Shown here: one piece after another, positions 24,563 to 38,081 of the stretch
Layout of the letters: every line of letters starts with the position of its first letter
How positions within the stretch are numbered: position 1 is the stretch's first letter
Source: Psychromonas sp. B3M02
GTDB taxonomy: Bacteria > Pseudomonadota > Gammaproteobacteria > Enterobacterales > Psychromonadaceae
Direction of reading: 5' to 3'
Length of the DNA stretch: 38,144 nucleotides
Assembly: GCF_003318165.1 (NCBI RefSeq)
Contig: NZ_QOCB01000079.1
Span: 1-38,144, forward strand
Notes under the pieces: generated by a model
What the model was told of the DNA's origin: nothing
What the model saw: only the letters and a program-made list of their open reading frames with translations
Databases searched by the model: none
Translations under genes and position numbers: made by a program

Positions 24563-26056
24563 TTAACTAGGAAAAGCGAAACTCGCTCCTTCCCTTACGC
24601 CACTTGATGGCCAACGCTGTGTAATGGTTTTACGTTTAGTGTAGAACTTAACACCATCTGGGCCGTAGGCACTTAAATCACCAAACAGTGAACGTTTCCA
24701 ACCACCAAAACTATGGTAAGCAACCGGCACCGGTAATGGCACGTTAATGCCAACCATACCCACTTCAATATTATCTGAGAAATAACGCGCGGCTTCACCA
24801 TCACGGGTGAAGATACAAGTGCCATTGCCATATTCATGGTCATTGATTAACTGCATCGCCTGATCCATAGATTCAACGCGCATCACTTGAAGTACAGGGC
24901 CAAAAATTTCAGCTTTGTAACTGTCCATCTCTGCTTTAACGTTATCAATCAAGGTTGCGCCAACAAAGTAGCCATTTTCATAACCTACAACGCTTATGTC
25001 ACGGCCATCAACAACAATACTTGCACCATCGGCTTCAGCGCTATCAATGTAACCCACTACTTTCTGCTGATGTTGCTTGGTAATAACAGGGCCAAAATCG
25101 TTATAGGTATTATCAAAGACACCGACTTTTAAGCTCTGCATGGCGACGGTCATTTTTTCAATCAATGCATCAGCGGCTTGATCACCTACGGCGACAACCA
25201 CAGATAACGCCATACAACGTTCACCAGAGGAACCAAAAGCTGCACCTAATAGTTGATTAACTGCATTGTCCATATCGGCATCGGGCATAATAATCGCGTG
25301 ATTTTTTGCACCACCTAATGCTTGGCAACGTTTACCGCTTGCAGTTGCTTTTGTATAAATATGCTCAGCAATTGGGGTAGAGCCAACAAAACTCACCGCT
25401 TTTACACGTTTATCTTCGAGAATGGCATCAACAGCTTGTTTATCACCATTTACTACATTTAACACACCCTTAGGTAAGCCGGCTTGTTGTAATAACTGCG
25501 CTAAAAATAAAGGTGCACTTGGGTTTCTTTCAGAAGGTTTTAGAATAAAACAGTTACCACACACGATCGCCAATGGAAACATCCACATCGGTACCATTGC
25601 TGGGAAGTTAAAAGGTGTGATCCCAGCCACGACACCAATTGATTGCATTTCACTCCAGGAATCAACATTCGGTCCTGCATTTTTGCTGTACTCCCCTTTT
25701 AACAATTCGGGAGCACCACAAGCATATTCAACGTTCTCAATACCACGTTGTAACTCGCCCGCTGCGTCATGCAAAATTTTACCGTGCTCTTTACCTAAAA
25801 GATGACAAATTTTATCGCGGTTTTCTTCTAATAACTCTTTAAAACGAAACATAATACGAGCACGTTTTAAAGGTGGTGTATTACGCCATTCAGGAAAAGC
25901 TTGTTGTGCCGATGCGATCGCCGCCTCCACGGTTTCTTTAGACGCTAATGCAACTTGTGTGGCAACTTCCCCTAATGCTGGGTCAAATACATCCTGTGTT
26001 CGGCTATTATCTTCTATTACTTCACCATCAATAAAATGGCCTACTACTTGTGTCAT
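24563..26056 (-). CDS. mmsA: (Methyl)malonate-semialdehyde dehydrogenase, CoA-acylating
   Basis: A 497-residue aldehyde dehydrogenase of the MMSDH class, which converts malonate or methylmalonate semialdehyde with CoA and NAD+ to acetyl-CoA or propionyl-CoA plus CO2. Seen: GVVAGITPFNFPAMVPMWM, the NAD-binding FILKPSERNPSAP, VSFVGSTPIAEHIY, catalytic Cys281 in SSGERCMALS, and EIFGPVLQVMRV. The GERCMA context is diagnostic of the CoA-dependent family. GGAG lies six bases before the ATG at 26056. It is the last gene of the preT-preA-aminotransferase-mmsA operon and takes the semialdehyde produced by the preceding enzyme, completing uracil and thymine breakdown. Confidence 0.94.
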   Translation of the reverse strand: MTQVVGHFIDGEVIEDNSRTQDVFDPALGEVATQVALASKETVEAAIASAQQAFPEWRNTPPLKRARIMFRFKELLEENRDKICHLLGKEHGKILHDAAGELQRGIENVEYACGAPELLKGEYSKNAGPNVDSWSEMQSIGVVAGITPFNFPAMVPMWMFPLAIVCGNCFILKPSERNPSAPLFLAQLLQQAGLPKGVLNVVNGDKQAVDAILEDKRVKAVSFVGSTPIAEHIYTKATASGKRCQALGGAKNHAIIMPDADMDNAVNQLLGAAFGSSGERCMALSVVVAVGDQAADALIEKMTVAMQSLKVGVFDNTYNDFGPVITKQHQQKVVGYIDSAEADGASIVVDGRDISVVGYENGYFVGATLIDNVKAEMDSYKAEIFGPVLQVMRVESMDQAMQLINDHEYGNGTCIFTRDGEAARYFSDNIEVGMVGINVPLPVPVAYHSFGGWKRSLFGDLSAYGPDGVKFYTKRKTITQRWPSSGVREGASFAFPS

Positions 26057-26094
26057 AACAATCTCCATGTGGTATTACCACGTTATTAGTTTTT

Positions 26095-27432
26095 TTAAGC
26101 TATTTCGTTGAAAGTTTCACCTAACGCATTAATTAAGGAATCGATTTCAGCCTTCTCAGTGGTGAAAGGCAAACCTAGTTGAACAGTCGCGCCACCATAT
26201 CTAATGAAAAAACCTTTCTGCCACATTTTCATGCCAATTTGATAAGGTCTTAATGCAGGGTCACCATTGTTTGGCGCAATAGTAAAACCTGCGGCAAAAC
26301 CATAATTGCGAATATCAACAATATGCTTACAGCCTTTTAAACTGTGTACCGCTTGCTGAAAGTAATCGCTCATTGCTTTCACTCTTTCCGGTAATTTCTC
26401 TTGCTGTAAAAGATCTAATGTCGCCAAACCCGCCGCACAAGCAACGGGATGTGCTGAGTAGGTATAACCATGTGGAAACTCAATCATATGGTCGCCACCG
26501 CTATTATCCATATAGGTATCGTAAATCTCTTGTTTAGCCACCACTGCCCCCATCGGAATAGCACCGTTAGTGACCTGTTTAGCAATATTGATCATATCTG
26601 GTACAACGCCAAAAGCTTCTGCACCGGTTTTTGCGCCCATTCGACCAAAACTACAAATGACTTCATCAAATATCAGTAGAATATTATTATCGGTACAAAT
26701 TTCGCGAAGACGATCTAAGTATCCAACAGGAGGTGGAATCACCCCCGCAGACCCAGATAATGGCTCGACAATAACCGCAGCGATGTTTGACGCATCATGT
26801 AATGCGATAATATCTAACAGCTCTTCCGCTAGTACTTTCCCATGCTCAGGTTGTCCCTGGCTAAATAGGTTTTCAGGCAATAGGGTATGACGCAGATGAT
26901 CCGCTTCCACCGCAGGCCCAAACATGGCGCGATTACCACCAATGCCGCCCACAGAGATACCACCGAAATTACTGCCGTGATAACCTAAACCACGACCTAT
27001 CAATTTGGTTTTTGTCGCTTGCCCTTTTTTACGCCAGTAGCCACGTGCCATCTTTAATGAGGTTTCAGCGGCTTCAGAACCAGATCCGGTATAAAACACG
27101 CGATTTAAACCTTGCGGCATAAACTCAGTAATTTTTTCGGCTAGTTGAAATGACTTCTCATGGCCAAACTGAAAACCTGGTGAGTAATCAAGGGTATTAA
27201 GTTGCTGACTCACTGCCTCAGTAATTTCCGGTCGACAATGTCCCAACCCTGTACACCAAAGACCAGATAATCCATCAAAAATTTTACGCCCTGCATCATC
27301 AGTAAAATAGCGCCCGGCTGCGGATGCTATGATTCTTGGGTCTTTTTTGAATTCACGGTTTGCGGAATAAGGCATCCAATGCGCATCTAATTGCGACTGT
27401 GTCAGACTATGGTTAACCTGTTTTTTATTCAT
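26095..27432 (-). CDS. Omega-amino acid:pyruvate aminotransferase (beta-alanine type)
   Basis: A 445-residue PLP class III aminotransferase. Asp256 (LLIFDEVIC) and Lys285 (INIAKQVTNGAIPMG) are the cofactor-binding aspartate and the Schiff-base lysine. GSGSEAAETSLKMAR binds the PLP phosphate. The N-terminal LDAHWMPYSANREFKKDPR and YHGSNFGGISVGGI are typical of beta-alanine--pyruvate transaminases. In this operon it should convert beta-alanine (from uracil) or beta-aminoisobutyrate (from thymine) to the semialdehyde used by MmsA 38 bases downstream. The substrate comes from family and context, not from a test. Confidence 0.92.
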   Translation of the reverse strand: MNKKQVNHSLTQSQLDAHWMPYSANREFKKDPRIIASAAGRYFTDDAGRKIFDGLSGLWCTGLGHCRPEITEAVSQQLNTLDYSPGFQFGHEKSFQLAEKITEFMPQGLNRVFYTGSGSEAAETSLKMARGYWRKKGQATKTKLIGRGLGYHGSNFGGISVGGIGGNRAMFGPAVEADHLRHTLLPENLFSQGQPEHGKVLAEELLDIIALHDASNIAAVIVEPLSGSAGVIPPPVGYLDRLREICTDNNILLIFDEVICSFGRMGAKTGAEAFGVVPDMINIAKQVTNGAIPMGAVVAKQEIYDTYMDNSGGDHMIEFPHGYTYSAHPVACAAGLATLDLLQQEKLPERVKAMSDYFQQAVHSLKGCKHIVDIRNYGFAAGFTIAPNNGDPALRPYQIGMKMWQKGFFIRYGGATVQLGLPFTTEKAEIDSLINALGETFNEIA

Positions 27433-27464: not shown

Positions 27465-28739
27465 TTATACTTCTTCACGATGCGGATTACGTTCATCTTG
27501 CATCCAGTTCATATATGGCTGCCCTTTTGAACGCTCATCCATAGTGATACAGTCATCAACCGGGCAAGTAATTTCACAGAGATTACAACCCACACAGTTA
27601 TCATCGATAATGCCAAAACTATTAGTACCATCTTCATTTGCAGTCACTTCGATAGCTTGATGTGAGGTATCTTCACAGGCTTGGTAACAACGACCACAAC
27701 CAATACATTTATCTTCATCGATGGTAGCCACCACCTTGTAGTTCATATTGAGCTTTTTCCAATCCGTTGTATTCGGAACTGCTAATCCTTTAAAGGCTTC
27801 AATATTTTCGTAGCCTTTACTGTCCATCCAGTTTGATAAACCTTCTTTCATCTCTGTGACAATGTTAAACCCGTAAATCATCGCCGCAGTACAAACTTGT
27901 ACAGAGCCAGCGCCTAAGGAGATAAACTCAGCAGCATCACGCCAATTACCAATGCCGCCTATGCCTGAAATCGGTAAACCAGCGGTTTCAGGGTCACGAG
28001 CAATTTCACCCACCATATTCAGCGCAATCGGTTTAACGGCAGGACCACAGTAACCACCGTGTGTACTTTTTCCGTCTACAATTGGTCGAGCAGCCATCGC
28101 ATCAAGGTCAATACTGGTAATAGAGTTGATGGTATTAATTAACGACACCGCATCGGCCCCTCCACTTTTAGCGGCACGCGCTGGGAACCTTACATCGGTA
28201 ATATTGGGCGTTAACTTAACAATGACCGGCATTTTACTGTGCTCTTTACACCAACGAGTGACCATCTCAACATACTCAGGTACTTGGCCAACAGCAGCCC
28301 CCATGCCGCGTTCAGGCATGCCATGAGGACAACCGAAGTTAAGTTCAATACCATCAGCGCCAGTTGCTTCTACTTGTTTTAAAATAGTTTTCCAAATCTG
28401 TTCCTCACAAGGCATCATTAACGACACCACTAAGGCACGGTCAGGCCAGCTTTTTTTCACCGCTTCAATTTCTCGCAAGTTAATCTCTAAACTACGGTCA
28501 GTGATTAATTCAATATTGTTAAAACCAGACACCTCACCATTGTGGTCATACAGTGCAGAATAACGAGATGAAACATTGACCGCAGCAGGGTCTTCACCTA
28601 AGGTTTTCCAAACTACCCCTCCCCAACCCGCTTCAAAAGCACGCTCAACGTTATAGGCTTTGTCTGTTGGTGGCGCTGAAGCTAGCCAAAATGGATTGGG
28701 TGCTTTAATACCTACAAAATCAATTGATAAATCAGCCAT
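27465..28739 (-). CDS. preA: NAD-dependent dihydropyrimidine dehydrogenase, catalytic subunit PreA
   Basis: A 424-residue flavin and iron-sulfur subunit that reduces uracil and thymine to the 5,6-dihydro forms. The FMN barrel (about 1-310) contains ELNFGCPHGMPERGMG, where Asn134 and catalytic Cys137 correspond to Asn668 and Cys671 of mammalian DPD. The C-terminus holds two 4Fe-4S motifs, CIGCGRCYQAC (about 342-352) and CVGCNLCEITCPVD (about 375-388). The start codon is one base after the preT stop, so the two subunits are translationally coupled. E. coli PreA is 411 residues, so the length is normal. Confidence 0.95.
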   Translation of the reverse strand: MADLSIDFVGIKAPNPFWLASAPPTDKAYNVERAFEAGWGGVVWKTLGEDPAAVNVSSRYSALYDHNGEVSGFNNIELITDRSLEINLREIEAVKKSWPDRALVVSLMMPCEEQIWKTILKQVEATGADGIELNFGCPHGMPERGMGAAVGQVPEYVEMVTRWCKEHSKMPVIVKLTPNITDVRFPARAAKSGGADAVSLINTINSITSIDLDAMAARPIVDGKSTHGGYCGPAVKPIALNMVGEIARDPETAGLPISGIGGIGNWRDAAEFISLGAGSVQVCTAAMIYGFNIVTEMKEGLSNWMDSKGYENIEAFKGLAVPNTTDWKKLNMNYKVVATIDEDKCIGCGRCYQACEDTSHQAIEVTANEDGTNSFGIIDDNCVGCNLCEITCPVDDCITMDERSKGQPYMNWMQDERNPHREEV

Positions 28740-28740
28740 G

Positions 28741-30093
28741 TTATTTCTCCTCAGATGAAGTTAGTTCTTGATGAATGGCTAATGCCGCTAGTTTGCCCTG
28801 TTGCACTGCTTCAACAGTTAAGTCTTGCCCTACACCCGTGCAATCTCCACCTGCAAACACACCTTCAATACTGGTTAATTGGTTATGAAATGTAGCGACT
28901 TTACCGTTACTAATAGTAGGAATAAGTTGTTCGGTTTGTGGGTATGCCATTTTTTGACCAACGGCTTTAAACACAGCACTACAAGGCACTTCAAACTGCT
29001 CTCCAGTGCTTTTTAGCTTGTCTTGATCGAGGTAGGTTTTACTAAAGGTCATTGACCTTAATTTACCCTGTTCATCAAGGTTAATTTTTTCTGGCTGACT
29101 CCATGTTTTAATACGAACTTGATGGTTTTTAGCTATTTGCTGTTCATGGCCGGTAGCGCTCATTTGTGCTTCACCACGGCGATAAACTAAGGTGACCTCT
29201 TCAGTACCTAAACGCTTTAATTGACAAGCGATATCAATGGCGGTGTTACCTGCACCAATCACTATTGCGCTGTCTTTTGGGATATCCAGTTGGTCAATAT
29301 CAGTGGCTTGACGCAACTCTTTAATGAAATCAACTGAATTTAATACTGAATCGTTATCTTCATGTTCTAAATACAGTGATGAAGTGTCTTGTAAACCAAT
29401 GCTGAGGAACACCGAATCAAACTCTTCCTTAAGTGTTGATAGGCTAATATCTTTACCGAGCGCGCGATCATAGTGCACCGTAATACCACCGATACTTAAG
29501 ATAAAGTCGACCTCTTCCTGAGCAAAATTTTCGGTTAACTTGTATTTAGCGATACCATATTCATTTAAACCACCCGCTTTTGGCTGTGCTTCAAATACTT
29601 CCACCTCATGACCTAACAGTGCTAGACGATGTGCACAACTTAACCCAGCAGGGCCAGCACCTACCACAGCAATTTTTTTACCTGTGTTTTCTGCACGTTC
29701 AAAGGGATGCCCTTCAAATTCCGCATTATCCGTTGCGTGACGTTGTAATAAACCAATTTTTACAGGCGCTTTTTCAGCTTCATGATTACGCACACAAGCT
29801 TGCTCACAGAGAATTTCAGTAGGACAAACACGTGCACAACTGCCCCCCATAATATTTTCTTTATAGATAGTTTTAGCAGCACCGGTTAAATCATCGGCAT
29901 GAATACTAGCGATAAAGCTAGGAATATTAATTTTAGATGGGCATGCCTTAATACAAGGTGCGTCATAACAATAATAACAACGTGAACTTTCGATACCTGC
30001 CTGACGCGCACTTAAGGCTGGATTGATGTCCTTAAACATTTGGTCTAATGCTAATTGTTGCTGTGAATAGTTTACTGAATTGTCCATATTCAT
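28741..30093 (-). CDS. preT: Dihydropyrimidine dehydrogenase, electron-input subunit PreT
   Basis: A 450-residue FAD and NAD(P)H subunit that passes electrons to PreA. An N-terminal GltD-like helical domain with two 4Fe-4S cysteine sets, CYYCYDAPCIKACP and CARVCPTEILCEQAC, precedes the FAD motif VVGAGPAGLSCAHRLALLG and the NAD(P) motif VIGAGNTAIDIACQL. GGDCTGVGQDLTVEAV near the C-terminus closes the FAD site. GAGG upstream allows a start at GTG 30096, ATG 30093 or ATG 30087. I chose 30093. It is the first gene of the four-gene catabolic operon and is preceded by two RutR-like operators. Confidence 0.94.
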   Translation of the reverse strand: MNMDNSVNYSQQQLALDQMFKDINPALSARQAGIESSRCYYCYDAPCIKACPSKINIPSFIASIHADDLTGAAKTIYKENIMGGSCARVCPTEILCEQACVRNHEAEKAPVKIGLLQRHATDNAEFEGHPFERAENTGKKIAVVGAGPAGLSCAHRLALLGHEVEVFEAQPKAGGLNEYGIAKYKLTENFAQEEVDFILSIGGITVHYDRALGKDISLSTLKEEFDSVFLSIGLQDTSSLYLEHEDNDSVLNSVDFIKELRQATDIDQLDIPKDSAIVIGAGNTAIDIACQLKRLGTEEVTLVYRRGEAQMSATGHEQQIAKNHQVRIKTWSQPEKINLDEQGKLRSMTFSKTYLDQDKLKSTGEQFEVPCSAVFKAVGQKMAYPQTEQLIPTISNGKVATFHNQLTSIEGVFAGGDCTGVGQDLTVEAVQQGKLAALAIHQELTSSEEK

Positions 30094-30142
30094 CACTATA
30101 ACCTCTCCTATTTATAATTAATGTTGCACTATCTTTTTATGA

Positions 30143-30158
30143 TTGACCCTTTGGACAA
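30143..30158. promoter_or_regulatory. RutR-like operator, site A
   Basis: TTGACCCTTTGGACAA. It matches 12 of the 14 fixed bases of the E. coli RutR consensus TTGACCANNTGGTCAA, as recalled. It is 50 bases before the preT start. Confidence 0.65.
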
Positions 30159-30179
30159 TGCAAACAACAAGCCAACTAC

Positions 30180-30195
30180 CTGACCACAGAGTCAA
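30180..30195. promoter_or_regulatory. RutR-like operator, site B
   Basis: CTGACCACAGAGTCAA, 11 of 14 fixed bases of the RutR consensus, followed by CAAGTTAGA. A similar CAAG tail follows site C. The upstream CAAGCCAAC is shared with site D. Confidence 0.6.
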
Positions 30196-30383
30196 CAAGT
30201 TAGATTAAAAAACGAACATGAGGCTAAGCGATTGTTTTGCTTAGTATAAAAATTAAGCTTATATTAAACGCTGAGATCGCTTATAAGTCTTTAAATAGTA
30301 ATCACTTCGATCTAAGATATGAATGTGGAGTAATGCTGCACCATGACAAGGCTGTTGCGATAAAACAGTGCGGAGAATGATTA

Positions 30384-31034
30384 ATGACTGACACTAAGAA
30401 AAGTGTAATAAAACGCCGAAAATCAGCTGATATTCGTAAAGGTAACCTACAGTTAATTTTAACCGTAGCAGAACAGCGCTTTGCTGAATTTGGCTATAAT
30501 GGCACCACTATCTCTTCTATTGCCGAACAAGCGAACCTGCCAAAATCGAATATTCTCTATTATTTCAAAACTAAAGAGGTGCTTTATAAAGAAGTACTTA
30601 GCCAAATTTTAAAGATTTGGTTGGTGGATATGGAAGAGATGACCGCAGATCAGCATCCTAAAGAGGCGCTCAGACAGTATATTCTGCTTAAGGTAAGACA
30701 ATCTAAAGATCACTCCAATGCCTCTCGTATCTTTGCTTCTGAGCTACTACATGGCGCGCCATTTTTAAAAGAAAAGCTACAAACCGACTTAAAAGTACAG
30801 TTTATTAGCACCTGCCAAGTGATTCGTGAGTGGATCGCCAAGCAATGGATGAACCCAATTAGCCCAGAACATTTACTGTTTATGATCTGGTCATCAACAC
30901 AAGCCTATGCCGACTATGGATTACAAAGTAGTATTTTGATGGGTAAAGCGGAGTTAGATGATGATGATTTTGAAACGGGTGCAGAACTGATCACGCAAAT
31001 AGTATTAAGAGGATGTGGTATTAAACAACTATAA
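30384..31034 (+). CDS. rutR: TetR-family regulator, RutR-like
   Basis: A 216-residue repressor close in length to E. coli RutR (212). The helix-turn-helix is TTISSIAEQANLPKSNILYYF (split: TTISSIAEQANLPKS, NILYYF), and NILYYFKTKEVLYKEVLSQ lines up with NLLYYFPSKEALYIAVLRQ of RutR. The C-terminal domain keeps RIFASELLHGAP and HLLFMIWSSTQAYADY, the ligand-pocket segments of the RutR (YcdC) family, which bind uracil or thymine. GGAG lies eight bases before the ATG. It sits between the two divergently organised parts of the pyrimidine locus, beside four RutR-like operators, so it is almost certainly the local regulator. Confidence 0.88.
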   Translation: MTDTKKSVIKRRKSADIRKGNLQLILTVAEQRFAEFGYNGTTISSIAEQANLPKSNILYYFKTKEVLYKEVLSQILKIWLVDMEEMTADQHPKEALRQYILLKVRQSKDHSNASRIFASELLHGAPFLKEKLQTDLKVQFISTCQVIREWIAKQWMNPISPEHLLFMIWSSTQAYADYGLQSSILMGKAELDDDDFETGAELITQIVLRGCGIKQL

Positions 31035-31054
31035 CATGCCGATTTAAAATTTAT

Positions 31055-31099
31055 AACACATTGTAAATAAAGTATTTATCAACTTATTTACAATGTGTT
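31055..31099. terminator. Bidirectional terminator between rutR and the amidase gene
   Basis: A perfect 16-bp stem (31055-31070 with 31084-31099) and a 13-nt loop in the gap between converging genes. The AT-rich arms supply weak U-tracts on both sides. Confidence 0.75.
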
Positions 31100-31134
31100 T
31101 AAACGACTAATTAATTGCCTTTACTGAGTGTAAC

Positions 31135-32364
31135 CTAAACCACTTCAGCCATGGTCAGCATAGCATTCAACAGTACAGAACAGCCCCCTTCACACTCTTC
31201 CTGAGTGGTACTTTCAATTTCATTGTGACTAATTCCATCTAAACAGGGTGTAAAAATCATACTCGTCGGAGCAAAATCCGAAACATAACAAGCATCATGT
31301 CCAGCCCCCGCAATAATATCCATATGGCTATAACCTAAGTCGACCGTTGCTTGGCGTACTGCATTCACACAGTCTTCGTTAAAGTGAATAGGTTCGTAAT
31401 ACCAGAATGGGTCAAGTGCAATGGTTGGACCCGTTGCCTCTATCTCTTTAATCGCAGCTTTTAAGGCTTCATCCATTTTAGTTAGCTCTTCATCAATCGG
31501 ATGACGTAGGTCAATACTCATGGAGATCTCGCCTGGAATAGTATTTCGCGAGTTTGGCATCACTTGCATAAAGCCCACTGTGCCACAGCCTGGTGGATGC
31601 GCTTTGGCGATCTCTTCAACCTTTAACACCAGTTGCGAACTTGCAATTAATGCATCACTACGTAAATGCATAGGTGTGGTACCAGCATGAGATTCTCGCC
31701 CAGTTAACACTGCGTTATACCAACGTTGCCCTTGACCACCAGTCACTACGCCCACTTGTTTTTCTTCTGCTTCTAAATAAGGCCCTTGCTCAATATGTGT
31801 TTCAAAGAAAGCATGGAATTGACGACCAGTAACCGGCGTTTCACCCGCAAAACCAATGCGTTCAAGTTCATCACCTAAGCGCAAACCATCAACGTCTTTA
31901 GTGTCTAAAATCTCTTGCAGAGTAAAGCGACCAGAAACCACACCAGAGCCCATCATAGCAGGTGCAAAACGCGAACCTTCTTCATTTGTCCAGACTGAAA
32001 TTTCAATGGGGTGCTTAGTTTTAATGCCTTGATCGTTCATTGTACGCACCACTTCTAACCCAGCCAATACACCATATACACCATCAAACTTACCACCTGT
32101 CGGCTGGGTATCAAGGTGACTGCCTGTTCCCACTGGCGGTAAACTCATATCTTCACCAGGGCGAGTACACATAATATTACCGACTGCATCAACCTTTACA
32201 GTACAGCCCGCTTCTTCAGCCCATTTAATATATAATTCACGTCCTTGCTTATCTAAATCAGTCAATGCAAGACGACAACATCCGCCTTTCGCTGTGCCCC
32301 CTATTTTCGCCATTACCATTAAACTATCCCAGAGGCGATCACTATTAATTTTTAATGCTTCCAT
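31135..32364 (-). CDS. Beta-ureidopropionase / N-carbamoyl amino acid amidohydrolase (M20 family)
   Basis: A 409-residue Zn-dependent amidase of the M20/AmaB group, which hydrolyses N-carbamoyl-beta-alanine (or the isobutyrate) to beta-alanine, ammonia and CO2. Metal ligands are in GSHLDTQPTGGKFDGVYG, TNEEGSRF, ETHIEQGP and GAGHDACYVSD near the C-terminus. The dimerisation domain (about 205-320) carries GRESHAGTTPM. GGAG lies six bases before the ATG at 32364. The upstream TTG in the same frame is not needed. It is transcribed towards rutR and shares a divergent promoter region with hydA. The exact substrate is inferred from the pathway. Confidence 0.92.
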   Translation of the reverse strand: MEALKINSDRLWDSLMVMAKIGGTAKGGCCRLALTDLDKQGRELYIKWAEEAGCTVKVDAVGNIMCTRPGEDMSLPPVGTGSHLDTQPTGGKFDGVYGVLAGLEVVRTMNDQGIKTKHPIEISVWTNEEGSRFAPAMMGSGVVSGRFTLQEILDTKDVDGLRLGDELERIGFAGETPVTGRQFHAFFETHIEQGPYLEAEEKQVGVVTGGQGQRWYNAVLTGRESHAGTTPMHLRSDALIASSQLVLKVEEIAKAHPPGCGTVGFMQVMPNSRNTIPGEISMSIDLRHPIDEELTKMDEALKAAIKEIEATGPTIALDPFWYYEPIHFNEDCVNAVRQATVDLGYSHMDIIAGAGHDACYVSDFAPTSMIFTPCLDGISHNEIESTTQEECEGGCSVLLNAMLTMAEVV

Positions 32365-32437
32365 GTTTGACTCCAATACAAGTTGATTTAAACGACATTA
32401 CGCACATAACATAATTAATTTAGTACAATGCAAGATA

Positions 32438-32453
32438 CTGACCAACAGGACAA
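32438..32453. promoter_or_regulatory. RutR-like operator, site C
   Basis: CTGACCAACAGGACAA, 11 of 14 fixed bases of the RutR consensus, followed by CAAGTTT as at site B. It is 74 bases before the amidase start. Confidence 0.65.
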
Positions 32454-32678
32454 CAAGTTTAAAGTTTAATGACACCCCTTATATATAGCTACTTGCATAC
32501 ATTTAAAACAAATAGAATAGATATTAATCATTATCAGTACAATATTCATGCACCACTATGGTGAGCAAATGCCCTGATATTGAGCAAGGCTATTGCCTCC
32601 CTACTATTTACCAACCCCTTTAAAAATAGACTTTAATTGCCTATAAGTAAGTAACAGCGCCTATCAGAACAACAATTC

Positions 32679-32694
32679 CCGTCCAGTTGGTCAG
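32679..32694. promoter_or_regulatory. RutR-like operator, site D
   Basis: In reverse complement, CTGACCAACTGGACGG, 10 of 14 fixed bases of the consensus. The half CTGACCAAC is identical to site C. It is just before the possible hydA -35. Confidence 0.55.
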
Positions 32695-32735
32695 TTAGTT
32701 AGTTGTTGGCTTGTAAATTGCAAACCCTTTAATAA

Positions 32736-34271
<1,536 letters not shown>

Positions 34272-34301: not shown

Positions 34302-35153
34302 ATGCTAGCAACTGAAGAAGCAGCAATGGAATCTGCCCCCGAAGTAACTGAAAAGCCTGAAAAAGCTGAACAAACTAAGCGAGAAATGATCGCCATTGAT
34401 GATTTATCGCTTATTTTTCCCAGTAAAGATGGCGATGTACATGCGCTATCAAATATTAATTTAAGTATTAAAAGTGGTGATTTTGTCTCTTTTATCGGCC
34501 CTTCTGGGTGCGGTAAAACCACTTTACTGCGGGTTATAGCCGATTTAGAAAAAGCCACGTCAGGTGATTTAAAAGTCAATGGTACCGATGCACAGGATGC
34601 GCGTTTAAACCGCTTGTATGGTTACGTATTCCAAGCCGCCGCTTTATTACCTTGGCGTAATATCCAACAAAACTGCGCTTTACCTATGGAAATTTCAGGC
34701 TTATCACCTGCGCAACAAAATAAACAAATAGATAAGTATTTAAAAATGGTTGGATTACAAGACTTCCATAAGAAATTTCCATGGCAGCTATCAGGTGGAA
34801 TGCAACAACGCGCGTCTATTGCCCGCGCATTGTGTTTAAATCCAGATTTATTACTAATGGATGAACCCTTTGGTGCATTGGATGAAATAACCCGTGATCA
34901 CATGAACATTGAACTACTGCGAATTTGGAGTGAAACACAAAAAACGGTCGTTTTTGTAACCCACTCGATTGATGAAGCGGTTTTACTCTCCACTCATATT
35001 GTAGTGATGTCACCACGTCCCGGCCGTATCGTTAAAGTAATAGAGAGCCCATTACCTCGATTAAAAACCTTAGCGTTACGCGACGACCCAGCTTTTCATG
35101 CCTTAGCCAGCGAGATTCGTACTGCACTTGCTCACGAGCATGCTATCGATTAA
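34302..35153 (+). CDS. ABC importer ATP-binding protein, NitT/TauT (ThiZ-like) type
   Basis: A 283-residue ATPase with a charged 28-residue N-terminal extension. Walker A GPSGCGKTT (66-74), Q-loop VFQAAALLPWRN, signature LSGGMQQR, Walker B LLLMDEPFGALDE and the switch VTHSID are all intact. It energises the two permeases that follow. Such NitT/TauT-type ATPases serve importers of sulfonates, nitrate or thiamin pyrimidine precursors. Here the neighbours indicate a pyrimidine or related N-heterocycle. AGG lies just before the ATG. Confidence 0.93.
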   Translation: MLATEEAAMESAPEVTEKPEKAEQTKREMIAIDDLSLIFPSKDGDVHALSNINLSIKSGDFVSFIGPSGCGKTTLLRVIADLEKATSGDLKVNGTDAQDARLNRLYGYVFQAAALLPWRNIQQNCALPMEISGLSPAQQNKQIDKYLKMVGLQDFHKKFPWQLSGGMQQRASIARALCLNPDLLLMDEPFGALDEITRDHMNIELLRIWSETQKTVVFVTHSIDEAVLLSTHIVVMSPRPGRIVKVIESPLPRLKTLALRDDPAFHALASEIRTALAHEHAID

Positions 35154-35181
35154 TCATAACCGACTAAAGGATTAGACATTT

Positions 35182-36054
35182 ATGAAACAAAAGATTTTTT
35201 CTTTCGTCAGTGTATTTGCGATCGTGATTGCGGTTTGGTATCTCGCAGCCTTACTGATGAATGGTAATCAACTGATTAATAACCTAGAGCGCAAAAATCA
35301 ATCCTGGACCTATCAGCAGATTATTGCAGGTGCTTACGACGTAAAGCGCCCAATGTTGCCTGCACCTCATCAAGTGGGACAAGAGTTGATCAAGTCGATT
35401 ATTGATCGCCCAGTAACCTCTAAACGTTCTTTAATCTACCATGCACAAATTACCCTCAATTCTACCTTGTTAGGTTTTGTATTTGGCTCTTTGTTAGGTA
35501 TTTTAATTGCCGTGGGCATAGTACATAACAAAACCTTAGAGTCGAGCTTAATGCCCTGGGTGATTGCCTCACAAACGATTCCTATCCTAGCTATTGCCCC
35601 CATGATAGTGGTGGTATTAGGCGCAATTAACATTACTGGTGTGATCCCTAAAGCGATTATCTCTATGTATTTGTCCTTCTTTCCGGTCACCATTGCCATG
35701 GTAAAAGGCTTGCGTTCATCGGATAAATTACATGAAGAGTTAATGCACACCTACAGTGCTACCGCTAAGGATATCTTCTGGAAGTTACGTTGGTATTCAG
35801 CACAACCTTACCTGTTTGCAAGTTTAAAAGTGGCAATTGCCGCTGCATTAGTCGGTGCGATTGTCGCTGAATTACCTACTGGTGCACAGGGTGGATTGGG
35901 TGCTCGTTTACTGAGTGGCTCCTATTATGGTCAAACCGAACAAATCTGGTCAGCACTGATCGTTGCCGCAACGTTGGGATCTATTTTAGTCTGGTTAGTA
36001 GGGATTGCAGAAAGAGTGCTGTTGCGCCGCCGAGGAGAGCTTGATCATGCCTAA
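35182..36054 (+). CDS. ABC importer permease, NitT/TauT type (first)
   Basis: A 290-residue inner-membrane permease with an N-terminal anchor helix, a periplasmic segment (about 30-80), and a BPD_transp domain (about 85-275). The ATPase-contacting EAA-like loop is LMHTYSATAKDIFWKLRW, in its usual place before the last three helices. Its last eight bases overlap the next permease, which is a strong sign of translational coupling. With the second permease it probably forms a heterodimer. Confidence 0.9.
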   Translation: MKQKIFSFVSVFAIVIAVWYLAALLMNGNQLINNLERKNQSWTYQQIIAGAYDVKRPMLPAPHQVGQELIKSIIDRPVTSKRSLIYHAQITLNSTLLGFVFGSLLGILIAVGIVHNKTLESSLMPWVIASQTIPILAIAPMIVVVLGAINITGVIPKAIISMYLSFFPVTIAMVKGLRSSDKLHEELMHTYSATAKDIFWKLRWYSAQPYLFASLKVAIAAALVGAIVAELPTGAQGGLGARLLSGSYYGQTEQIWSALIVAATLGSILVWLVGIAERVLLRRRGELDHA

Positions 36055-36997
36055 AACATTAAAAAATTGTATCTATATCGCTTTAATTGTACTGCAATTA
36101 GGGTTAGTGGTGTTTAGTGAAACGGGTTTCTATCATGCCTTCTCACCTTCAGTTTTATTATTAATCGCAGCGGCCTACAGTATGGCTAAATTATTAGGAC
36201 AGTTAACTAATCTAGAAACTAAATACAAATACATTAAACCAATCATTCCAACTTTATTCGCTTTTATGCTGATATTAACCTGGGAAAGTATTGTTCAAGG
36301 TTATGCTATTTCGCCTATTTTAATGCCTGCACCCAGCAACATATTCCATGCGTTGATCAGTAATATTCCGATGCTCTGGGCTGACTTTAAACAAACCTAC
36401 TTAAAAGCGGTATTGGCGGGATATATCATAGGGTGTTTATCGGGCTTTCTAGTGGCGCAATGGGCAGTCAGGAATAAAGTACTGCAGGATGCACTGATGC
36501 CATTGGGCAACTTTATGTCTGCGATTCCGATTGTGGGTATCGCACCAATCATGGTGATGTGGTTTGGTTTTGACTGGCAGTCTAAAGCCGCAGTGATTGT
36601 GATAATGACCTTCTTCCCGATGTTCATTAATACCCTAACGGGTTTGCAATCCACCGATGCACTACATAAAGATTTGATGCACACTTATGCCGCTAAAAAA
36701 TCACAAATATTCTTTAAGAACCAATTACCTCATGCCCTTCCGTTTATCTTTAATGCATTGAAATTAAACTCTGCATTAGCCTTAATCGGCGCGATCGTTG
36801 CTGAATTCTTTGGCACACCTATCGTTGGCATGGGATTTCGAATTTCGACCGAGGTAGGTCGAATGAATATGGACTTGGTATGGGCCACTATTGTGGTGGC
36901 CGCGATAGCGGGTTCATTAAGTTATGGGGCACTTGCTTTATTAGAGAAGTCCTTATTGTTTTGGCACCCCTCGTACCGAGAAGGTAAAAACAGTTAA
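36047..36997 (+). CDS. ABC importer permease, NitT/TauT type (second)
   Basis: A 316-residue permease with two extra N-terminal helices (about 5-50) before the usual six-helix domain. Its EAA-like loop is LMHTYAAKKSQIFFKNQLPH, homologous to that of the first permease. The GAGGAGA before the ATG at 36047 lies inside the end of the first permease gene, giving an 8-base overlap. An in-frame start at 36005 would overlap more and has no such site. Confidence 0.9.
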   Translation: MPKTLKNCIYIALIVLQLGLVVFSETGFYHAFSPSVLLLIAAAYSMAKLLGQLTNLETKYKYIKPIIPTLFAFMLILTWESIVQGYAISPILMPAPSNIFHALISNIPMLWADFKQTYLKAVLAGYIIGCLSGFLVAQWAVRNKVLQDALMPLGNFMSAIPIVGIAPIMVMWFGFDWQSKAAVIVIMTFFPMFINTLTGLQSTDALHKDLMHTYAAKKSQIFFKNQLPHALPFIFNALKLNSALALIGAIVAEFFGTPIVGMGFRISTEVGRMNMDLVWATIVVAAIAGSLSYGALALLEKSLLFWHPSYREGKNS

Positions 36998-37079
36998 TGC
37001 TATCTAATTAATTCAATAACAGTAGGACATTGAATTCAATTAGTTTTACGTCACTTTACAATAGAAAAGGGAATAAACT

Positions 37080-38081
37080 ATGAAAAGAACGCTAATCACA
37101 CTCGCAACGGGCGCCGCTTTATTTGCATCAAGCTTTAGCGCTAGTGCAGCAGATAAACTGACACTGCAATTAAAATGGGTAACACAAGCTCAATTTGCAG
37201 GCTATTACGCCGCTTTAGAGAATGGTTACTATAAAGACGAAGGCATTGACCTTTCTATTAAACCCGGTGGCCCTGATATTGCACCTGCTCAAGTATTAGC
37301 AGGCGGTGGTGCAGACGTTATTGTGGATTGGTTACCTTCCGCATTAGCAACACGTGAAAAAGGCTTACCTATGGTCAATATCTCTCAGGTTTACAGTAAA
37401 TCTGGGATGATGCTGACCTGTTTAAAGTCCAGTGGCATCAAAACATCGGCTGACTTTAAAGGGAAAACCCTTGGCGTCTGGTTCTTTGGTAATGAGTACC
37501 CATTCCTTAGCTGGATGTCACAGCTAGGTTACCCAACCACAGGCGGTGACGAGGGTGTAACTGTCTTAAAACAAGGCTTTAATGTTGACCCAATCTTCCA
37601 AGGACAAGCAGATTGTGTCTCGACCATGACCTACAATGAATACGGTCAAATCATGGATGGCGGTTTAACACCTGAAGAGTTAGTACTATTTAAGTATGAA
37701 GATGAAGGTGTGGCGACTTTAGAAGATGGTTTATACGTACTTGAAGAAGACTTAAAAGACGACAAGAAAGTAGAAACCTACGCTAAATTCTTAAAAGCAT
37801 CATTAAAAGGTTGGAAATGGGCAGCAGACAACCCTGAAGAAGCCGCTATGATCGTCCTAGAGTATGATGACACAGGTGCGCAAACTGAAGCTCATCAAAT
37901 CCGTATGATGACGGAAGTCGCTAAGTTATTAGGCTCAGGTGATGATATGGGTTATTTAGATCCAGCTGCATTTGACCGTACAGTGGATATTTTATTAAGC
38001 AGTGACTCAGCACCTGTTATCACTAAAAAACCAGTGGGTGCCTACTCGCATATTGTTTATGACAAATACAAAGAGCTTTAA
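37080..38081 (+). CDS. NMT1/THI5-like periplasmic substrate-binding protein of the ABC importer
   Basis: A 333-residue protein with a signal peptide (cleavage near ASA-ADK). The mature part shows the NMT1/THI5 (ThiY-like) pattern: LTLQLKWVTQAQFAGYYAA, NGYYKDEGIDLSIKPGG, DWLPSALATREKG, and GKTLGVWFFGNEY. ThiY relatives bind formylaminopyrimidine. In a uracil catabolic operon this one probably captures a pyrimidine, dihydropyrimidine or ureido compound. GGGAA precedes the ATG. Its stop codon's last base is also the first base of the MITE-like repeat that follows, so the element may influence the 3' end of this mRNA. Confidence 0.92.
   Translation: MKRTLITLATGAALFASSFSASAADKLTLQLKWVTQAQFAGYYAALENGYYKDEGIDLSIKPGGPDIAPAQVLAGGGADVIVDWLPSALATREKGLPMVNISQVYSKSGMMLTCLKSSGIKTSADFKGKTLGVWFFGNEYPFLSWMSQLGYPTTGGDEGVTVLKQGFNVDPIFQGQADCVSTMTYNEYGQIMDGGLTPEELVLFKYEDEGVATLEDGLYVLEEDLKDDKKVETYAKFLKASLKGWKWAADNPEEAAMIVLEYDDTGAQTEAHQIRMMTEVAKLLGSGDDMGYLDPAAFDRTVDILLSSDSAPVITKKPVGAYSHIVYDKYKEL

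Follow-up and report, generated by a model that had tools for sequence, protein, structure and literature searches.

Candidate RutR-like operators at three sigma-54 type promoters of a reductive pyrimidine locus in Psychromonas

How might a bacterium that encodes the reductive route of uracil degradation control the genes for it? The question is raised by a 38,144-nucleotide stretch of DNA from the marine bacterium Psychromonas sp. B3M02 (NCBI RefSeq assembly GCF_003318165.1, contig NZ_QOCB01000079.1; the whole stretch is called the window below), which belongs to a genome whose 3,861,573 bases are spread over 156 contigs. In the window, genes for a semialdehyde dehydrogenase, an omega-aminotransferase, PreA and PreT on the reverse strand are followed by a TetR-family regulator gene (paralogue A) on the forward strand, an M20-family amidase gene on the reverse strand, and hydA with an ATP-binding cassette (ABC) transporter on the forward strand. 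We propose, with a probability of about 0.72, that three sites in the two divergent spacers of this locus (sites 2-4) are operators at which the local RutR-like protein would repress three sigma-54 type promoters, and that these promoters would be released by a pyrimidine and fired by NtrC.

Conserved sites and promoter-like elements in the two spacers

The spacers between preT and the regulator gene (30097-30383) and between the amidase gene and hydA (32377-32813), 724 base pairs (bp) together, were scored against TTGACCANNTGGTCAA, which we take to be the RutR consensus with its 14 fixed bases, and 4000 dinucleotide shuffles served as the null. A preliminary description of the window had named four 16-mers in these spacers as RutR-type operators, and all four were recovered, with the matches given in Table 1. 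Four sites of at least 10/14 compare with a shuffle mean of 0.29, a count reached in one of 4000 shuffles; for the three sites of at least 11/14 the mean is 0.03, and none of the 4000 shuffles reached that count. Over the whole window, 8 matches of at least 11/14 were found versus 1.99 expected, five of them outside both spacers.

Conservation was followed in 15 loci in which preT, the regulator gene and the amidase gene follow one another as in the window, eight from the genus (the window included) and seven from another family of the order; the amidase-hydA spacer gives 14 rows, as one contig ends before hydA. Loci L004-L007 have the same identities as those of G018, G012, G020 and G009, are apparently the same loci, and were counted once; L100 and L115 come from a single genome. 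Site 2 is kept at 10/14 or better in all 15 loci and has a mean column conservation rank of 2 among 272 16-mers. Sites 3 and 4 are kept at that level in 14/14 loci each, with ranks of 7 and 6 of 422, and the alignment of the loci has invariant columns in both half-sites. Site 1 comes closest to the E. coli consensus, yet only two of the 15 loci retain it, namely the window and its nearest relative (rank 165 of 272). Loss of the motif from loci that keep the regulator had been named beforehand as grounds for rejection; it is seen at site 1 and not at sites 2-4.

What the preliminary description had missed is that sites 2-4 abut or overlap promoters of the sigma-54/NtrC type. Both strands of the window were scanned with a sigma-54 consensus of 13 scored positions in which GG-N10-GC was required. 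Seven matches of at least 10/13 occur in the whole 38 kb; three of them stand in the two spacers, each aimed at its gene, a result reached by 0/4000 shuffles. The preT element scores 10/13 or more in 15/15 loci (column-block rank 24 of 272). The amidase and hydA elements each score at least 9/13 in 13 of the 14 loci and 8/13 in the remaining one, and as a column block the amidase element ranks 2 of 422.

The distance between operator and promoter is also largely retained. At preT the first -24 G lies downstream of the centre of site 2, at a distance of 13.5-14.5 bp in 15/15 loci (14.5 bp in the window), and at the amidase gene site 3 is centred 2.5 bp from the -24 GG in 14/14 loci. The fused pattern TGGTCA-N5-TTGCA has 78 matches in the 15 genomes versus 27 for the reversed (mirror) control, and 21 of the 78 fall in the amidase-hydA spacer, with at least one per genome. 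The same pattern at xdhA in three genomes runs away from xdhA, is possibly an accident of the palindromic TGCA, and is not claimed. Helical phasing of sites 3 and 4 (spacings of 240-263 bp) was dropped, as it holds at 10.5 bp per turn and not at 10.4 or 10.6.

NtrC is encoded in the genome (TIGR01818, 734.8 bits; cut-off 558.6). Tandem NtrC-like boxes stand between the amidase and hydA promoters, and the first of them ranks 30 of 422 in conservation. Since the window holds 76 matches of at least 8/12, only conservation can argue for the weaker boxes. The top-ranked 16-mer of the preT spacer lies in the conserved block at 30357, directly before the regulator start codon. This block, 30357-30371, ends in AGTGC and reaches up to 9/12 as an NtrC-like box in relatives; it may belong to the regulator's own leader instead. 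At lowered thresholds, the organism's own glnA promoter shows two NtrC boxes of 9/12 at the 21-bp spacing of the tandem boxes, together with a sigma-54 match of 10/13.

Table 1. Positions of candidate regulatory elements and genes in the window
Feature	Position	Strand	Match or score	Remark
Site 1, TTGACCCTTTGGACAA	30143..30158		12/14	Not conserved; chance or lineage-specific
Site 2, CTGACCACAGAGTCAA	30180..30195		11/14	Conserved candidate operator for preT
Site 3, CTGACCAACAGGACAA	32438..32453		11/14	Conserved candidate operator for amidase gene; overlaps -24 element
Site 4, CCGTCCAGTTGGTCAG	32679..32694		10/14	Conserved candidate operator for hydA
Sigma-54 type promoter, TTGGCTTGTTGTTTGCA	30159..30175	-	11/13	Toward preT
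Sigma-54 type promoter, TTGGTCAGTATCTTGCA	32429..32445	-	10/13	Toward amidase gene
Sigma-54 type promoter, TTGGCTTGTAAATTGCA	32706..32722	+	11/13	Toward hydA
Weak NtrC-like boxes	30337..30371		8/12 at 30337	Conserved block 30357-30371
Tandem NtrC-like boxes	32549..32586		10/12 at 32549, 8/12 at 32570	21 bp apart
CoA (coenzyme A)-acylating (methyl)malonate-semialdehyde dehydrogenase	24563..26068	-	TIGR01722 674.7, cut-off 448.5	
Omega-aminotransferase	26095..27432	-	NF052567 694.9, cut-off 500	Putative beta-alanine step
preA, dihydropyrimidine dehydrogenase subunit	27465..28739	-	NF006183 705 bits, cut-off 335	
preT-like subunit	28741..30096	-		Named by position before PreA; heads preT-preA-aminotransferase-dehydrogenase run
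RutR-like TetR-family regulator, paralogue A, 216 amino acids	30384..31034	+	PF08362, PF00440	RutR models below cut-off
M20-family amidase	31135..32376	-	NF006769 632.7, TIGR01879 414.6, both above cut-off	Putative N-carbamoyl-beta-alanine step
hydA, dihydropyrimidinase	32814..34271	+	TIGR02033 609.7, cut-off 393	
ABC transporter (ATPase, two permeases, NMT1-like binding protein)	34302..38081	+		3' of hydA; putative importer

The regulator and known RutR systems

Regulator A carries a YcdC-type domain (PF08362, 154.8 bits) and a TetR_N domain (PF00440, 43.3 bits), and its best matches among solved structures are E. coli RutR chains in the PDB. Its nearest named relatives are in Psychromonas, at 86-95% identity. 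Both RutR equivalog models score under their cut-offs (TIGR03613, 187 of 368 bits; NF011584, 172.7 of 230), and the TIGR03613 cut-off is exceeded in one of 14 control genomes. The uracil contacts given for E. coli RutR in PMC10891134 are W77, Y97, W167, Q171 and Q179; all five are kept in 15/15 paralogue-A proteins and also in 8/8 proteins of a second type, paralogue B.

A first tree covered 45 proteins; in it A has B as its sister (support 96/97), and both are joined with regulators linked to xanthine dehydrogenase (xdh) genes (96/83). Two regulators of more distant reductive pyrimidine (pyd) loci form a group with E. coli RutR (97/91), and a further one, pyd_L181, is placed with E. coli RutR at the weak support of 81/27. 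A second tree, read from its group table and tests, left out the long branches pyd_L181 and D_L050; A, B and the xdh-linked proteins still form one side of a branch, with support down to 89/76, and this branch is not firmly established. Paralogue A as a single clade has 75/67 in the first tree and 68/78 in the second. Forcing A together with E. coli RutR, rut_L099 and the two pyd-linked regulators costs 18.4 log units and is rejected (approximately unbiased test, p 0.00227), for a group that was picked after the first tree had been seen and with long branches present. The view of the local TetR protein as a RutR homologue holds as far as the intact contact residues and the best structural match go; it does not extend to a RutR equivalog, nor to a place in the RutR clade (p 0.0023).

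According to PMC10891134, expression of E. coli rut depends on NtrC and the RutR site is a palindrome of about 16 bp; PMC8743547 lists the RpoN holoenzyme, alone and with NtrC, in the rutA-rutR spacer. In our scan this spacer holds a sigma-54 match of 11/13 toward rutA, a RutR-like site of 11/14 and two NtrC boxes of 9/12, so that matches of 10-12/14 lie in the range of a known target. The E. coli system shares with the window a TetR/YcdC-type regulator, a palindrome of that length and, by motif scan, the same three types of part. It differs in serving enzymes of the oxidative route, and the regulator of the window is not a RutR equivalog. It differs also in layout: in E. coli rut the site is centred 73.5 bp before the -24 GG, versus 2.5 to 21.5 bp here, and the fused arrangement is not seen in E. 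coli.

The preliminary idea that a RutR-like protein controls the reductive route was right in kind but not new, as it is in print for Pseudomonas putida PydR, to judge by a title (Hidese et al. 2012, cited in PMC7332683) that describes a RutR-like repressor of the reductive-route dihydropyrimidine dehydrogenase gene. As far as a comparison with a title allows, the window is of that type, with a RutR-like gene in a preTA/hydA locus and sites at the promoters of that locus. Leyn et al. 2016 (PMC5343134) report RutR regulons of pyrimidine catabolism in 68 genomes of 13 taxonomic groups, with 10.9 target genes per genome and taxon-specific changes of the motif. The fused operator/sigma-54 layout occurs in no title or abstract start found by a literature search that had most subscription journals outside its scope. 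RutR-like control is already known; the predicted fused layout is a new form of it, and the putative coupling to sigma-54 and NtrC, together with the regulator's branch, is the part of interest.

How far the arrangement extends was followed in genomes of the class, of which 11 of 369, our own included, have preA at an E value of 1e-120 or better. In the stretches of 13-16 kb around it, only genes matching the query set were placed. Three of the 10 other preA loci have a RutR-like gene, and all three have intergenic sites of at least 12/14 (13 and 14; 14; 12); in the seven loci with no RutR-like gene, 12/14 sites occur only inside the amidase gene (two loci). Next to the sites in the three distant regulator-bearing loci, no sigma-54 match of at least 10/13 was found. 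The association of regulator, operator and pathway thus reaches far, and the fused promoter seems confined to this lineage.

Proposed control and rival explanations

With no pyrimidine present, a repressor dimer would occupy sites 2-4. It would cover the -24 element of the amidase promoter, and at preT and hydA it would be centred 14.5 and 21.5 bp before the -24 GG, positions in which it would be expected to obstruct sigma-54 polymerase or to prevent NtrC from reaching it. The repressor would come off once uracil or a related base filled its pocket, and upon nitrogen limitation NtrC bound to the upstream boxes would fire all three promoters. PreTA, HydA, the amidase, the aminotransferase, the dehydrogenase and the ABC importer would then be made only when nitrogen is short and a base is present. 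From the sites, the promoter-like elements, their conservation and geometry, the contact residues and the ntrC gene we infer binding, repression, the ligand and the action of NtrC; the whole is best read as the logic of E. coli rut shifted to the reductive pathway.

Several observations weigh against this proposal. The consensus at up to three mismatches is not enriched genome-wide (232 places versus 368 for the mirror control); because of this and of the matches outside the spacers, a lone consensus match says little unless it is conserved. The 15 loci are relatives and not independent, and two pairs of regulators are identical. At the amidase site, operator and sigma-54 motif are not independent either, since the half-site TGGTCA supplies the -24 GG. 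As a column block the hydA promoter shows poor conservation (rank 82 of 422), and its -24 GG stands 21.5 bp from site 4 in six loci of Psychromonas and 2.5 bp from it in the remaining eight loci. On the preT side, the NtrC box in the window reaches 8/12 alone. The control scans of E. coli and glnA used thresholds lower than those first set (11/13 and 10/12), at which the 12 kb around glnA gave no match at all, and the E. coli rutA-rutR spacer gave two extra sigma-54 matches of 10/13. Finally, paralogue B could be the true binder of some of the sites, given its identical contacts and closely similar recognition helix.

This last point leads to the rival that survives best, namely that the sites are common to A and B, with a purine-linked B and a pyd-linked A binding the same boxes as one purine/pyrimidine regulon. 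Such sharing is possible, though we consider it rather doubtful. The genome holds three further close relatives of regulator A, with 59 (B), 40 (C) and 32% (D) identity; the names of the genes around B, C and D are readings of open reading frames and not family-library matches. Paralogue B, whose recognition helix is nearly identical to that of A, adjoins xanthine dehydrogenase-like and xdhC-like genes (L043:11561-12653, G000 C89). In its own genome a perfect 14/14 RutR palindrome stands 56 bp before xdhA, and among the Psychromonas B loci this site scores 14/14 in five of six and 13/14 in the sixth (six of eight B-type loci, the two with no xdhA in the stretch being omitted). More distant xdh loci have a site of at least 11/14 in 3/4 cases. 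Near-perfect palindromes at xdhA and the nearest branch of the first tree ally the xdh-linked regulators, paralogue B among them, with A; they differ from it in standing beside purine genes and in having their site downstream of the sigma-54 match, not upstream. The B locus points to a purine-linked RutR-like regulator. A 2025 paper (PMC12694930) mentions, as a possibility being studied, that P. aeruginosa has a RutR-type regulator close to purine genes. The five contact residues cannot alone explain a difference in ligand between A and B, since they are the same in both.

A shared regulon would also accommodate a 5'-nucleotidase-like gene whose RutR-like site (12/14) stands some 270 bp upstream of it, next to GCACCAA repeats (L047:6487-6547, G000 C139). 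This site is a conserved island in the five closest orthologues, the genome's own included; among 14 other 5'-nucleotidase-like copies, four have an 11/14 match, at differing positions. What speaks for separate use is that A-type sites are less perfect (10-13/14) than B-type sites (13-14), a difference that could keep the two apart, and that the seven A genomes of the other family keep sites 2-4 yet lack B (no further match above 43% identity at E 1e-40). A tentative history, one we would hold at low confidence, is that a regulator of the purine (xanthine dehydrogenase) branch was recruited to the reductive route after duplication, its operator becoming fused with the -24 element, and that the two sisters, with boxes and contact residues in common, may now gate purine, pyrimidine and nucleotide scavenging under nitrogen control.

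It is unlikely that all four sites act, site 1 serving as an operator that covers the start of preT transcription. No other site scores higher, and site 1 stands immediately downstream of the preT -12 element, but its retention in 2/15 loci and its low conservation rank argue otherwise. Least probable by far is that the conserved blocks are mainly sigma-54 elements whose RutR likeness is a by-product of shared letters, which the overlap of TGGTCA with the -24 GG (14/14 loci at the amidase gene, 8/14 at hydA) would allow. However, the operator stands clear of the promoter at preT and, in six Psychromonas loci, at hydA, and it still ranks 2/272 and 6/422, invariant columns occur in both half-sites, and distant loci carry near-perfect palindromes with no sigma-54 match of 10/13 nearby.

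The encoded pathway, further loci and meaning

In the reductive route, uracil is converted to dihydrouracil, N-carbamoyl-beta-alanine, beta-alanine and acetyl-CoA. By pathway knowledge the locus encodes this route in full, with the substrates of the amidase and the aminotransferase as assigned in Table 1. The preliminary description had read the locus as the reductive PreTA-HydA-amidase route, and PreA, HydA, the amidase, the aminotransferase and the dehydrogenase all exceed curated cut-offs. The top NCBIfam matches of the preT-like protein are glutamate-synthase-small-subunit-like, with every model shown below its cut-off. A query with E. coli RutA found no convincing RutA-type gene in the genome (best hit 30% over 144 residues, E 7e-4).

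The remaining paralogues stand beside other genes. Paralogue C, which has E at position 179, adjoins an HpxO-like gene (L045:3639-5813, G000 C89); upstream of that gene, in the two loci having it of six examined, are a sigma-54 match of 12-13/13 and a diverged palindrome, CTTACCA-NN-TGGTTAG (10/14). Paralogue D heads a cluster of ferredoxin-type reductase, amidohydrolase, RidA-like, creatininase-like and ABC transporter genes (L050:273-8784, G000 C142), possibly for the catabolism of another N-heterocycle. Elsewhere, a spacer between nirB-like and nasA-like genes (L048:6170-6659, G000 C75) shows a 12/14 RutR-like site, sigma-54 matches and an NtrC-like box, in the organism's own genome. Two other matches were set aside: one of 13/14 at C143:2244, inside an open reading frame read as a prepilin peptidase, was taken as chance, and a 12/14 site by ureD, present in this genome alone among seven close orthologues, was not taken as conserved.

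If the proposed control holds, a single logic, NtrC and sigma-54 combined with a base-sensing TetR repressor, would govern two unrelated uracil pathways, as far as sequence evidence goes, and the locus would be a concise example of a sigma-54 promoter that has a repressor site within it. Moreover, the pair of A and B, with the same five contacts and different neighbours, makes the discrimination between purines and pyrimidines by RutR-like proteins testable.

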